A DNA stretch of 64,000 bases, from assembly GCA_019638275.1 (NCBI GenBank), contig JAHBUC010000001.1:186001-250000 (forward strand), in the 5' to 3' direction. The DNA comes from Cyclobacteriaceae bacterium (GTDB taxonomy: Bacteria; Bacteroidota; Bacteroidia; Cytophagales; Cyclobacteriaceae). How positions within the stretch are numbered: position 1 is the first letter of the stretch; the number at the start of each line of letters is the position of its first letter. Both the position numbers and the translations under genes were made by a program. Below, piece after piece: positions 17,801 through 22,037 of this stretch. The notes beneath the pieces were generated by a model. The model worked only from the letters and a program-made list of their open reading frames with translations. It did no database searches and was not told the origin of the DNA.

Positions 17801-20242
17801 TCAACTACCACACGCTTCACACGCATCCGGGTTATCCAGTGAGCAAGCCATGTCCGACATTTTCTTTTCATAGTCGGCCACCTGGGTGTACGCCAGTTCC
17901 TTTTGCGGCTCAGGCTTGGTTGCAGTAACTGCGGCACCAACAGCAACTTCAGCCGTAACGGTTTGCTGCATCGCTGTTTTATCAAGGGTAAACTTGATGG
18001 CATCCGCAGCAGCGGTTGAGCGCAGGTAGTACATGCCGGTTTTCAATCCTTTCTTCCAGGCGTAGAAATGCATGGAAGTAAGTTTGCCGAAGTTCGGATC
18101 CTTCAAGTGGATGTTCAAACTCTGCGACTGGCAGATGTATGCACCGCGATCAGCCGACATATCAATAATGGCCTTTTGAGAAATTTCCCAAACGGTTTTG
18201 TAGATATCCTTAATGTTTTGCGGAATCTCTGGAATGGGTTGTACCGAACCGTTGGTGGCAATAAGCTTCTGACGCATCGTTTCATTCCACAGTCCCAGGT
18301 CGATCAGGTCTTTCATTAAATGCTTGTTGGCAATGATGAATTCACCAGAAAGTGTTCTGCGGGTGTAGATGTTTGATGTGTATGGCTCAAAGCACTCATT
18401 ATTACCAAGAATCTGTGAAGTAGAAGCGGTAGGCATCGGAGCGAGCAACAGCGAGTTGCGTACACCGTGCTTCTTCACATCTTGCTTCAGTTGTTCCCAG
18501 TTCCAGCGTCCGCTCTGAGGGTTCACGCCCCACATGTCGAACTGGAAGATGCCTTTGGATACCGGAGAACCTTTGAAGGTTTCATATGCTCCCTGAACTT
18601 TCGCCAGCTCCATAGAAGCTTCCATCGCACCGAAGTAGATCGTTTCGAAAATATCTTCATTCAGCCTGCGAGCTTCTTCCGAGTCGAATGGCATGCGCAA
18701 CATGATAAAGGCATCGGCCAATCCTTGTACGCCTAACCCAATAGGGCGGTGGCGCATGTTGGAGTTGCGTGCTTCTTCAACCGGGTAATAGTTTACATCA
18801 ATAACCTTGTTGAGGTTACGGGTAACTACTTTGGTAATCTCGTATAATTTCTGGTGATCGAACTTGCCATCTTCCGTTACAAATTTTGGCAACGCCAATG
18901 AGGCGAGGTTACAAACGGCAACTTCATCTTTGGAGGTGTACTCGATAATTTCCGTACACAAGTTGCTCGACTTGATTGTGCCCAGGTTCTTCTGGTTCGA
19001 TTTTCTGTTGGCAGAATCCTTATACAAGATGTAAGGCGTTCCGGTTTCAATTTGTGATTCCAGAATTTCAAACCACAGGTCTTGTGCTTTTACTTGTTTG
19101 CGGGCCTTGCCTTCTTTTTCGTACTTATCATACAAGCGTTCAAATTCTTCGCCCCACACTTCGGCTAAGCCGGGTGCTTCGTTCGGGCAGAAGAGTGACC
19201 ACATTTCGTTGTTCTCTACGCGTTGCATGAACAGGTCGGGTATCCACATGGCGTAGAACAAATCGCGTGCACGCATTTCTTCTTTACCGTGATTTTTCTT
19301 CAGGTCGAGGAAATCGAACACATCAGCATGCCACGGCTCGAGATAGATGGCAAAACTTCCTTTACGTTTTCCACCACCTTGATCCACATAACGTGCGGTC
19401 ATGTCGAAGTTGCGGAGCATCGGTACAATACCGTTTGAGGTTCCGCCTGTTCCTTTAATGTATGATCCTTTTGCGCGGATGTTATGGATGCTCAATCCAA
19501 TTCCTCCGGCAGATTGTGAAATTTTAGCACACTGCTTTAGTGTATCGTAAATACCATCAATGCTGTCATCCTGCATGGTAAGCAGGAAGCATGACGACAA
19601 TTGCGGCTTAGGTGTACCGGCATTGAACAATGTTGGTGTGGCATGCGTAAACCATTTTTCTGAAAGCAGGTTGTACGTTTCAATGGCCGCGGGAATATCC
19701 TCGCCATGAATACCAACGGCTACACGCATCAACATGTGCTGCGGGCGTTCCACTACCTTACCATCAATCTTCATCAGGTACGAACGCTCCAGTGTTTTAA
19801 AACCGAAGTAGTCGTAGCTGAAATCACGATCGTAAATGATGGCTTCATCCAATTCAGCGGCATGGTCGCGCACAATCTTCCAGGTTTCCTTGGAGATGAG
19901 GGGTGCGTTTTCACCCGTTTTGGGATCCACGTACGTGTACAAGCGCTTCATGGTGTTGGAAAAAGACTTGCTCGTAACTTTATGCAGGTTAGACGTAGCC
20001 AAACGAGCAGCCAACTTGGCGTAGTCGGGGTGCTTTGTGGTTAACGTGGCGGCAGTTTCAGCGGCCAGGTTATCGAGTTGCACGGTGCTTACGCCATCAT
20101 ACAAACCATTAATCACCTTCATGGCAACCTCTACCGGGCTGATATACTTCGTATCCAGTCCGTAACAGAGCTTTTCAATGCGAGCGGTGATTTTGTCAAA
20201 CTTTACGGACTCTCTGCGTCCGTCTCTTTTTATGACAAGCAT
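17801..20242 (-). CDS. nrdA: Class I ribonucleotide reductase, large (alpha) subunit
   Basis: The large subunit reduces ribonucleoside diphosphates to deoxy forms. The 813-residue product has an N-terminal ATP-cone (residues 1-90, [25 protein letters not shown]), which senses ATP/dATP. The catalytic barrel follows, with the redox Cys at 218 (PQLSSCFLL), [11 protein letters not shown] with the active-site Cys and Glu, and the radical-transfer end region. The C-terminus CEACGS supplies the mobile CxxC that accepts electrons from thioredoxin or glutaredoxin. Sequence style is close to eukaryotic R1. It lies 53 bases downstream of nrdB in one operon, the reverse of the usual alpha-beta order. Confidence 0.96.
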
Positions 20243-20295
20243 TTCTTAGGGTTGTTTAAAAAGTTTAAAAAATGGTGAAAAGTGTTTTGAAGATA

Positions 20296-21285
20296 TTAAA
20301 AATCTTCATTGAGTGAAAACTTCGGAGACGAATCTTTTTCCGAGCTGTTCAACACTCCGGCTTTCTGGTATTCTGCTACGCGTTTTTCAAAGAAATTTGT
20401 TTTTCCGCGCAGCGAAATCATATCCATAAAGTCGAACGGGTTGGTGGCACCATAAACTTTCTTACCAATCAATTCATTCAGCAGGCGGTCAGCCACAAAC
20501 TCAATATATTGTCGCATCAACTCTGCATTCATGCCGATAAGATTAACCGGCAGTGCATCGGTCACAAATTCTTTTTCAATTTCAACGGCATCCTTAATAA
20601 TGTCAATCACCGTTTGTTCCGGCAGTTTACCGACTACATGTTGTGTATAGAGGTGGCAGGCGAAATCGCAGTGCAGTCCTTCATCTCTGGAAATCAATTC
20701 GTTGGAGAAACTCAAGCCCGGCATAAGGCCGCGCTTCTTCAGCCAGAAAATGGAACAGAAAGAGCCTGAAAAAAATATGCCCTCAACAGCTGCAAAAGCG
20801 ATCAAGCGTTCCTGAAAACTTCCATTCGATATCCAACGCAACGCCCAATCAGCTTTTTTCTTCACGCAGTCAATGGTTTCGATGGCGTGGAATAAAGAGT
20901 CCTTTTCTTTCGGATCTTTTACGTACGTATCTATTAATAGGGAGTATGTTTCAGAGTGGATGTTTTCAATGGCGATCTGAAAGCCATAGAAAAACTTAGC
21001 TTCCGTGTATTGCACTTCTGAAACGAAATGCTCGGCCAGGTTTTCATTCACAATACCATCGCTGGCGGCAAAGAAAGCGAGTACATGTTTAATGAAATGG
21101 CGCTCACCGTCATTTAGGTTTTCCCAGTCGGTAAGGTCCTGGCTCAGGTCAATTTCTTCGGCAGTCCAAAAGCTGGCTTCTGCCTGTTTATAGAATTTCC
21201 AGATGTCGTGTTGTTGAATGGGGAAGAGTACAAAACGGTCTTTGTTTTCCCTTAAAATGGGTTCTTCTGGTAAAGAATGGCTCAT
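20296..21285 (-). CDS. nrdB: Class I ribonucleotide reductase, small (beta) subunit
   Basis: The small subunit carries the di-iron/tyrosyl-radical cofactor. The start is the ATG at 21285 ([11 protein letters not shown]), giving 329 residues; the longer open frame runs through the structured leader. Ligands and radical site are visible: Glu107 and His110 with Tyr114 in ENIHSETY, then EGIFFSGSF and [13 protein letters not shown]. The sequence is strikingly like animal R2 ([42 protein letters not shown], and a C-terminal acidic tail ending DF that docks on the large subunit). It is first in the operon, with its own promoter and a leader of about 150 bases. Confidence 0.96.
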
Positions 21286-21437
21286 CTTTCCTTGGGTTTT
21301 AGGGTTGTTTAAATATTTATCAGACTTCCGCGGACGGTGTGCCGGGGCATGTACCACCGTGGTTGCCAGGTTAAAAAATCAAAAAAGTTTACTTGTATTA
21401 ACCGGAAACAAGACTCACCTCTTTCCGGCTTGTGTAA
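21286..21437 (-). promoter_or_regulatory. Structured 5' leader of nrdB-nrdA, class unknown
   Basis: Between the predicted transcription start and the nrdB ATG lie about 150 bases with two stem-loops. The first pairs CCGGAAA with TTTCCGG (21402-21408 and 21422-21428, 13-base loop). The second pairs ACGGTG with CACCGT (near 21335-21361) and contains an inner TGCC/GGCA arm. The region following GGCAACC resembles no riboswitch I can name. No NrdR box was seen. The length and pairing suggest post-transcriptional control of ribonucleotide reductase. Confidence 0.45.
21309..21350 (-). other. Possible 13-codon leader ORF inside the nrdB leader
   Basis: An ATG at 21350 opens [13 protein letters not shown] and then TAA. 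GGTGG lies a few bases upstream. The ATG is inside the second stem-loop, so translation and folding would compete. No run of a single amino acid is present, so classical attenuation is not obvious. It may be chance. Confidence 0.25.
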
Positions 21438-21442
21438 GCGTA

Positions 21443-21474
21443 CAAATATTTGAAATGAGCACTACAAATCAAAA
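21443..21474 (-). promoter_or_regulatory. Promoter of the nrdB-nrdA operon
   Basis: On the minus strand, TTTTG (21470-21474) is followed after exactly 19 bases by AATATTTG (21443-21450), close to the Bacteroidota TTTG-N19-TAnnTTTG promoter with one mismatch. Transcription would start near 21437. Confidence 0.55.
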
Positions 21475-21699
21475 GATGTTCAGCGGCCAAAAATTCGGTT
21501 TTCATGCTGAATTTGCATATTTCGAAGGTTTATAAATGGTTGTGTTTTAGGTGGTTGGTAAGGCCTTTCAATGCTCTGCTTTCACTTAAAACGGGGTTGA
21601 AAATTTTTTTTATTTTTTTCTGATCCCCGAAAGGGCCTTATTTCAGGGGTTGATGTGCCAATTTCCAAATCCAAGGTTCTGAAATCTAAATTCTTTTTC
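21475..21699. other. Intergenic stretch between the nrdB and rplU promoters
   Basis: No convincing gene is present on either strand. It holds a long A/T tract (21600-21620) and an imperfect hairpin, CCCCGAAA...TTTCAGGGG, at about 21625-21650. Nothing else stands out. Confidence 0.5.
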
Positions 21700-21707
21700 T
21701 ACCTTTG
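21700..21707 (+). promoter_or_regulatory. Promoter -7 box for rplU-rpmA
   Basis: TACCTTTG matches TAnnTTTG 21 bases before the rplU ATG, which predicts a short leader of about 16 bases. Confidence 0.55.
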
Positions 21708-21728
21708 CAGTCCAATTTTTGAAAAGCT

Positions 21729-22037
21729 ATGTATGCAATTGTAAACATTGCCGGAACACAGTTCAAAGTGGCTAAAGACCAGTATATCTACGCGCCCAAG
21801 CTGGAGGGAGAGGCCGGATCAAGTGTAAACTTCGATCAGGTACTTCTGCTCGACCGTGACGGGAAAGTAGAAATTGGCGCCCCTACTGTTAAAGGCGCAA
21901 AAGTATCTGGTAAGATACTGGAGCACGTAAAAGGCGATAAGGTAATTGTCTTTAAAAAGAAGCGTAGAAAAGGCTATACCAAGAAAAACGGTCATCGCCA
22001 GCAGTACACGAAGGTTCAGATTGAAAGCATTGGTTAA
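21729..22037 (+). CDS. rplU: 50S ribosomal protein L21
   Basis: The 102-residue protein starts [20 protein letters not shown] and carries the L21 signature near the C-terminus, [22 protein letters not shown]21 binds 23S rRNA and is placed next to L20 in the large subunit. Length is typical. It forms the usual pair with rpmA 18 bases downstream. Confidence 0.97.

Follow-up and report, generated by a model that had tools for sequence, protein, structure and literature searches.

The nrdB and nrdA genes of this genome, which belongs to an uncultured group of Bacteroidota, are preceded by a genuine, lineage-specific structured leader that fits no Rfam family. Comparison of homologous leaders shows that two hairpins, named here H1 and H2, have been preserved through compensatory change as their sequence drifts, and we regard the structured leader as real because it is the shape of the hairpins, not their sequence, that evolution has kept. 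The leader is probably an mRNA-protecting and ribosome-loading element rather than a riboswitch. The explanation that we favour, with a probability of about 45%, is that of a purely structural 5' leader, in which H1 would protect the 5' end and H2 would act as a spacer hairpin, no ligand being needed. The genes, promoter and hairpins are located as follows in the window, by which we mean the whole stretch of 64,000 nucleotides that was analysed.

Positions 20296 to 21285, minus strand: nrdB, with its ATG at 21285, which we take from its translation to encode the small subunit of a class I ribonucleotide reductase.
Positions 17801 to 20242, minus strand: nrdA, judging from its translation presumably the large subunit of the class I enzyme.
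Positions 21286 to 21729: intergenic region common to nrdB and to the divergent gene pair that, from the translations, we take to be rplU-rpmA.
Positions 21443 to 21474, minus strand: promoter TTTTG-N19-AATATTTG, with TTTTG at 21474-21470 and AATATTTG at 21450-21443.
Positions 21286 to 21439, minus strand: nrdB leader, of about 153 nt from a predicted +1 near 21438.
Positions 21391 to 21439, minus strand: hairpin H1, whose main stem pairs 21430-21422 with 21408-21400 and whose three inner base pairs join 21420-21418 to 21412-21410.
Positions 21439-21436 with 21394-21391, minus strand: weak outer helix of H1 (GCUU with AAGU), set off from the main stem by a 5/5 internal loop.
Positions 21323 to 21367, minus strand: hairpin H2, made of an outer GGC/GUC helix, an AA/AA internal loop and an inner stem.

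The promoter proposed in the preliminary description, TTTTG-N19-AATATTTG on the minus strand, is present in the window and upstream of nrdB in all 17 genomes of the genus, with a spacing of 19 in 16 of them and of 20 in G012. AATATTTG differs from TAnnTTTG by one mismatch, and two genomes (G015 and G002) have a second TTTGA at spacing 14 in addition to the first at 19. The +1 near 21438 is predicted by applying the placing of the Flavobacterium psychrophilum -7 box, at -12 to -5 (part of PMC9723704), and the resulting length of about 153 nt agrees with the earlier estimate of about 150 bases. This makes the nrdB leader a long one: the median 5' UTR measures 24 nt in F. psychrophilum (same part of PMC9723704) and 32 nt in B. 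thetaiotaomicron, where 13.5% exceed 100 nt (excerpt of PMC7366714). Used as a DNA query, positions 21280-21480 gave a whole or partial match in 13 of the 16 other genus genomes and in 1 of 42 genomes outside the genus. This last match is short, and the query also matched a T-rich stretch of 26 bases elsewhere in its own genome. Ten public contigs that contain the promoter core are all metagenome-assembled genomes labelled Cytophagales, Cyclobacteriaceae or Flammeovirgaceae.

A control for the promoter within its own genome was made with strict patterns, which gave one and two places (too few), and with a looser pattern, whose 31 matches are probably mostly due to chance since the reversed pattern gives 25. 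Thirty of the looser matches were taken as loci, and 18 of these are intergenic with some open reading frame downstream. Among the 18, the locus before a gene that its translation leads us to call greA (z -5.8) surpasses nrdB (z -3.4), and that before a presumed rpsH, also named from its translation, is about equal (z -3.2); a 5' hairpin at such promoter loci is thus uncommon but not unique. At the greA-like locus (L155, about 1500-1650; G000:C19:138055), the promoter-like site is directly followed by the strong hairpin and a U-rich run, which look terminator-like and recall the GraL leader of E. coli greA.

The window sequence alone is weak evidence for structure, and it is the comparative test that is convincing. 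The perfect 7-bp stem noticed earlier, CCGGAAA/TTTCCGG, is present on the minus strand (21428-21422 with 21408-21402) and extends to 9 bp if its G-U and A-U ends are included, whereas the outer helix of H1 can pair in more than one register and is counted as weak. Against shuffled sequences H1 is unusually stable (z -3.69, p 0.003); H2 by itself is not unusual (z -0.44, p 0.33), nor is the whole leader (z -1.24, with 27 of 200 shuffles equally stable). For the second, nested stem-loop of the preliminary description, ACGGTG/CACCGT and an inner TGCC/GGCA arm can both be found in the window, but the consensus structure lacks the inner arm, whose columns are variable.

Covariation and conservation of the stems are found in homologous leaders. 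RNAalifold was applied to a sequence-only alignment (A2) of the nine genus leaders that can be aligned by sequence, and it returned both hairpins with 25 pairs. Two-sided compensatory changes affect 11 of these 25 pairs against 5.7 in shuffles, none of 500 shuffles reaching 11, in a count whose structure came from the same nine-sequence alignment and in which four of the nine sequences are mutually close. The changes fall on 8 of the 13 pairs of H2 and on 3 of the 12 pairs of the main and inner stems of H1, which is thus a conserved hairpin near the 5' end, the feature sought in a 5' stabilising stem-loop. Moreover, 88.2% of the 221 cells are paired; shuffles give 77.3%, none of the 500 being as high, and sliding the structure along the alignment gives 36-52%, at most 52.3%. 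The number of further pair types, 24 against 20.4 in shuffles (19 of 500 as high), is the one less striking measure of the five.

No common structure was returned by RNAalifold from a sequence alignment of all 17 genus leaders, because the hairpins are not alignable by sequence across this set. When the segments are folded singly, z is negative in 17 of 17 genomes for H1 (mean -1.99) as well as for H2 (mean -2.12), with p<=0.05 in 10 of 17 for each, whereas control stretches of equal length upstream of the promoter have a negative z in 23 of 34 cases and p<=0.05 in 4 of 34. H1 is not individually significant in seven of the 17, and in G013 its segment prefers a different fold. In the eight less alignable genomes p<=0.05 is reached by H1 in four and by H2 in seven. 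Structure, rather than sequence, thus seems to be kept.

Fixed 52-nt 5' segments also stand out within the genus (mean z -1.95 versus -0.63, Mann-Whitney p 0.011). A 5' hairpin is present in the near genera represented by G062, G031, G082 and G071 (p 0.000, 0.050, 0.060 and 0.060, respectively), and none was found in the next nearest, G033 (p 0.575). Taken as a set, the 5' segments of 46 non-genus genomes are no better than controls (mean z -0.76 versus -0.51, p 0.47; p<=0.05 in 11 of 46 segments and 9 of 63 controls), in a survey that covers 63 of 80 genomes after leaving out 17 without a usable promoter by rule, with the promoter placed by hand in up to ten of the 63 and some rule-placed promoters doubtful. 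A 5' hairpin common to the whole family is therefore unsupported. Some separate clades carry 5' hairpins of their own, unrelated to H1. For example, nrdB leaders of another clade (L083, L085, L089, L090, L091 and L092, from G081, G077, G017, G091, G059 and G064) have one directly after the promoter, in which AGGCTGT or a variant pairs with CAGCCT or CGGCCT (p 0.005 to 0.075); it is followed by T-rich sequence and looks terminator-like.

H1 adjoins the predicted 5' end, and H2 lies between a U6 tract and AACAACCCTAAA. The sequences that flank H2 recur in front of nrdA.

Positions 21370 to 21379, minus strand: box A, the U tract before H2, AUUUUUUAAC.
Positions 21298 to 21309, minus strand: box B, AACAACCCUAAA, ending 12 nt upstream of the nrdB start codon.
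Positions 20250 to 20272, minus strand: boxes A and B between nrdB and nrdA, adjacent and without a hairpin, TTTTTTAAACTTTTTAAACAACC.

Box A is a T tract (ATTTTTTAA in the window) in which five T columns are the same in every one of the 17 genus leaders, and the ACAACC columns of box B are equally invariant in all 17. The longer string AACAACCCTAAA is found twice in the genome (4.26 Mb), once upstream of nrdB and once upstream of a gene that we take to be thioredoxin-like. In the reverse order, box B then box A, the two are also seen before a thioredoxin-like gene as AACAACCCTAAATTTTTTTAACC (L160, about 1501-1540). Box A is found as TTTTTTAA before nrdA too, and in the 14 genomes of the genus whose nrdA start could be read, U6AA directly precedes this gene in 14 and AACAACC in 13; three loci unreadable by the script were left out of this count, one of which (G010) visibly has box B along with a shortened form of box A. 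Both boxes are present in four of 13 loci of other genera (G062, G071, G033 and G024). The distance from box to box varies, and the boxes themselves vary less. In the nrdB leader of G033 they are adjacent and followed by a hairpin, an arrangement that fits boxes forming one unit and a hairpin that is a movable spacer.

These arrangements suggest how the favoured, purely structural leader might work. H1 begins at the predicted transcription start or only a few bases from it and would hide the 5' end from decay enzymes, by analogy with E. coli 5'-terminal stem-loops; the enzymes concerned would be those that need a single-stranded 5' end, and such shielding might give the nrd mRNA a long life. 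H2 would absorb surplus leader, bringing the U tract of box A close to box B (AACAACCC), as they are before nrdA, and would keep the start region free for ribosomes. A protective H1 is favoured because this hairpin lies close to the predicted +1 and hardly anything about it except its shape is constant, and a spacer is the simplest reading of H2 because H2 separates boxes that are neighbours before nrdA. Assuming the predicted start, the first four leader bases are mostly paired in five of 17 genus genomes, and the start region is only 0.60-0.78 unpaired. It is the structure that the comparison reveals; stabilisation, ribosome access and the part of any regulator are functions that we infer from it.

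The boxes could instead be the point of the leader. Box A (UUUUUUAA) and box B (AACAACCC) would then form a candidate site for an RNA-binding protein or a small RNA that sets the level of both subunits, with H2 as a hinge, which we consider doubtful, although several observations are in its favour. Both boxes stand before both genes, recur before nrdA within and beyond the genus, and are better kept than their spacing. The pair is also rare: TTTTTTAA-N1-30-AACAACC has only three occurrences in the 4.26 Mb of this genome, one ahead of nrdA, one within a reading frame and one spanning a different start, so that it is almost confined to nrdA there (nrdB is absent from the three because H2 puts more than 30 nt between its boxes). 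Moreover, none of the 17 genus genomes gave a match to the NrdR model (NCBIfam TIGR00244), which is positive in 9 of 14 control genomes. This speaks against an nrd operon controlled by NrdR and makes the boxes candidates for RNA-level control specific to nrd. However, the family-wide search counts against this reading. Across 196 genomes the pattern TTTTTTAAAC-N2-14-AACAACC was matched 34 times, in 27 of the genomes: 15 matches precede nrdA, one precedes nrdB (G033) and the other 18 are away from nrd genes, in some cases immediately ahead of another start, so that the boxes may be a general initiation motif; the reversed pattern gave 10 matches, the level expected by chance. We know of no binder of either box. 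More specifically, a dedicated binder in a Cyclobacteriaceae lineage without NrdR might read U6AA and AACAACCC before nrdB and nrdA, with H2 as a sequence-free hinge that brings the boxes together and the subunits made in step, a scenario that we hold to be improbable.

It is unlikely that regulation resides in transcription, through DnaA at the intergenic region between nrdB and rplU, and that the hairpins only tune the basal level. Among the nrdB upstream regions of 80 genomes (L047-L126), 18 have exact DnaA boxes, 22 in total where dinucleotide shuffles predict 0.42, and closely spaced pairs with 2 bp between the boxes are found in two near genera (G031 and G082, the partner box having at least six of nine matches). 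E. coli DnaA prefers pairs spaced by 2 or 3 bp and binds a 3-spaced pair before nrdA (both from part of PMC11317965). Nevertheless, the window's own upstream region has no exact box; within the genus an exact box is present in three genomes only, about 180 bp above the -7 box, and the boxes of G070 and G023 lie between a -7 candidate and the gene.

A riboswitch of a new class, or another RNA that senses a ligand (a dNTP, a nucleotide or cobalamin), is very improbable. A covarying structure does precede a nucleotide-metabolism gene, and there is a precedent in the annotated cobalamin riboswitch of the Propionibacterium acnes nrdAB leader (excerpt of PMC3848588). However, no Rfam 15 covariance model matched the window at its gathering threshold, cobalamin and all other riboswitches included, and the single sub-threshold match (E 2.7) is on the plus strand, upstream of the promoter; the absence of any recognised riboswitch class stated in the preliminary description is thus borne out. 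No conserved ligand-binding core was found in a loop or junction, and a ligand pocket is argued against because stems, loops and internal loops drift freely within the genus. No terminator-like site, that is a G+C-rich stem directly followed by a U tract, was found in 21200-21750, where the U tract of the window starts 13 nt after the main stem of H1, and an attenuator based on an intrinsic terminator was rejected. From sequence comparison, a ligand-binding RNA before nrdB appears unlikely. The earlier suggestion that RNA structure controls ribonucleotide reductase therefore keeps its first part, a structured leader conserved in the genus and outside any Rfam class, but the sensing of small ligands such as dNTPs gains no support.

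The preliminary description also drew attention to a short frame with its ATG inside the second stem.

Positions 21309 to 21350, minus strand: open reading frame of 13 codons, from the ATG at 21350 to a TAA ending at 21309.

Attenuation through translation of this frame as a leader peptide is scarcely credible and was rejected, since the frame exists in the window but is not conserved, a closed frame of 11-13 codons being found at that place in only three of 17 genomes (G000, G001 and G016), while from the ATG there the frame runs on in G009 and has 2 codons in G004, and the H2 region has no ATG in five of 17 and ATGs elsewhere in seven. The 13-codon frame is probably not a gene.

Control of ribonucleotide reductase is usually described as a matter of allostery and of transcription factors, NrdR and DnaA among them. 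Should the leader determine how long the mRNA lives, or tie the two subunits together, the dNTP supply of Bacteroidota would gain an RNA layer; otherwise the leader is a clear case of conservation through structure alone. The boxes shared by nrdB and nrdA are the part most worth an experiment. Judged by title or by the opening of the abstract, none of the papers listed by searches of the open-access literature deals with the leader of an nrd gene from Bacteroidota.

Among known systems, the ompA mRNA of E. coli carries a 5' stabilising stem-loop, and 5'-terminal stem-loops of E. coli were reportedly studied by Emory in 1992; both subjects figure among the references of PMC7509114. To our knowledge, the second hairpin and the nrd boxes have no counterpart among such stem-loops. 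The mRNAs of recA in Acinetobacter and vacA in Helicobacter are also stabilised in this way (part of PMC7509114). The nrdB leader shares with ompA, recA and vacA its length, a hairpin located at the 5' end or close to it, and a structure that seems to outweigh sequence, whereas it belongs to another phylum and another gene, and its effect on half-life is a predicted one. In Propionibacterium acnes much of the nrdAB transcription appears to stop before the first gene (excerpt of PMC3848588). The leader there is likewise an RNA element of a class I reductase operon, but the one described here has neither a cobalamin or other Rfam match nor any terminator-like site that we could find. GraL of E. 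coli greA is similar in having a hairpin just downstream of the promoter and differs in ending in a terminator (part of PMC6829880), of which none was found in the nrdB leader. The main text of PMC9723704 contains neither "nrd" nor "ribonucleotide", and no Rfam family reaches its threshold here; with the 64 structured 5' transcribed regions that this source gives for F. psychrophilum, and with the Flavo-1 motif, the nrdB leader has in common that all are structured leaders of Bacteroidota.
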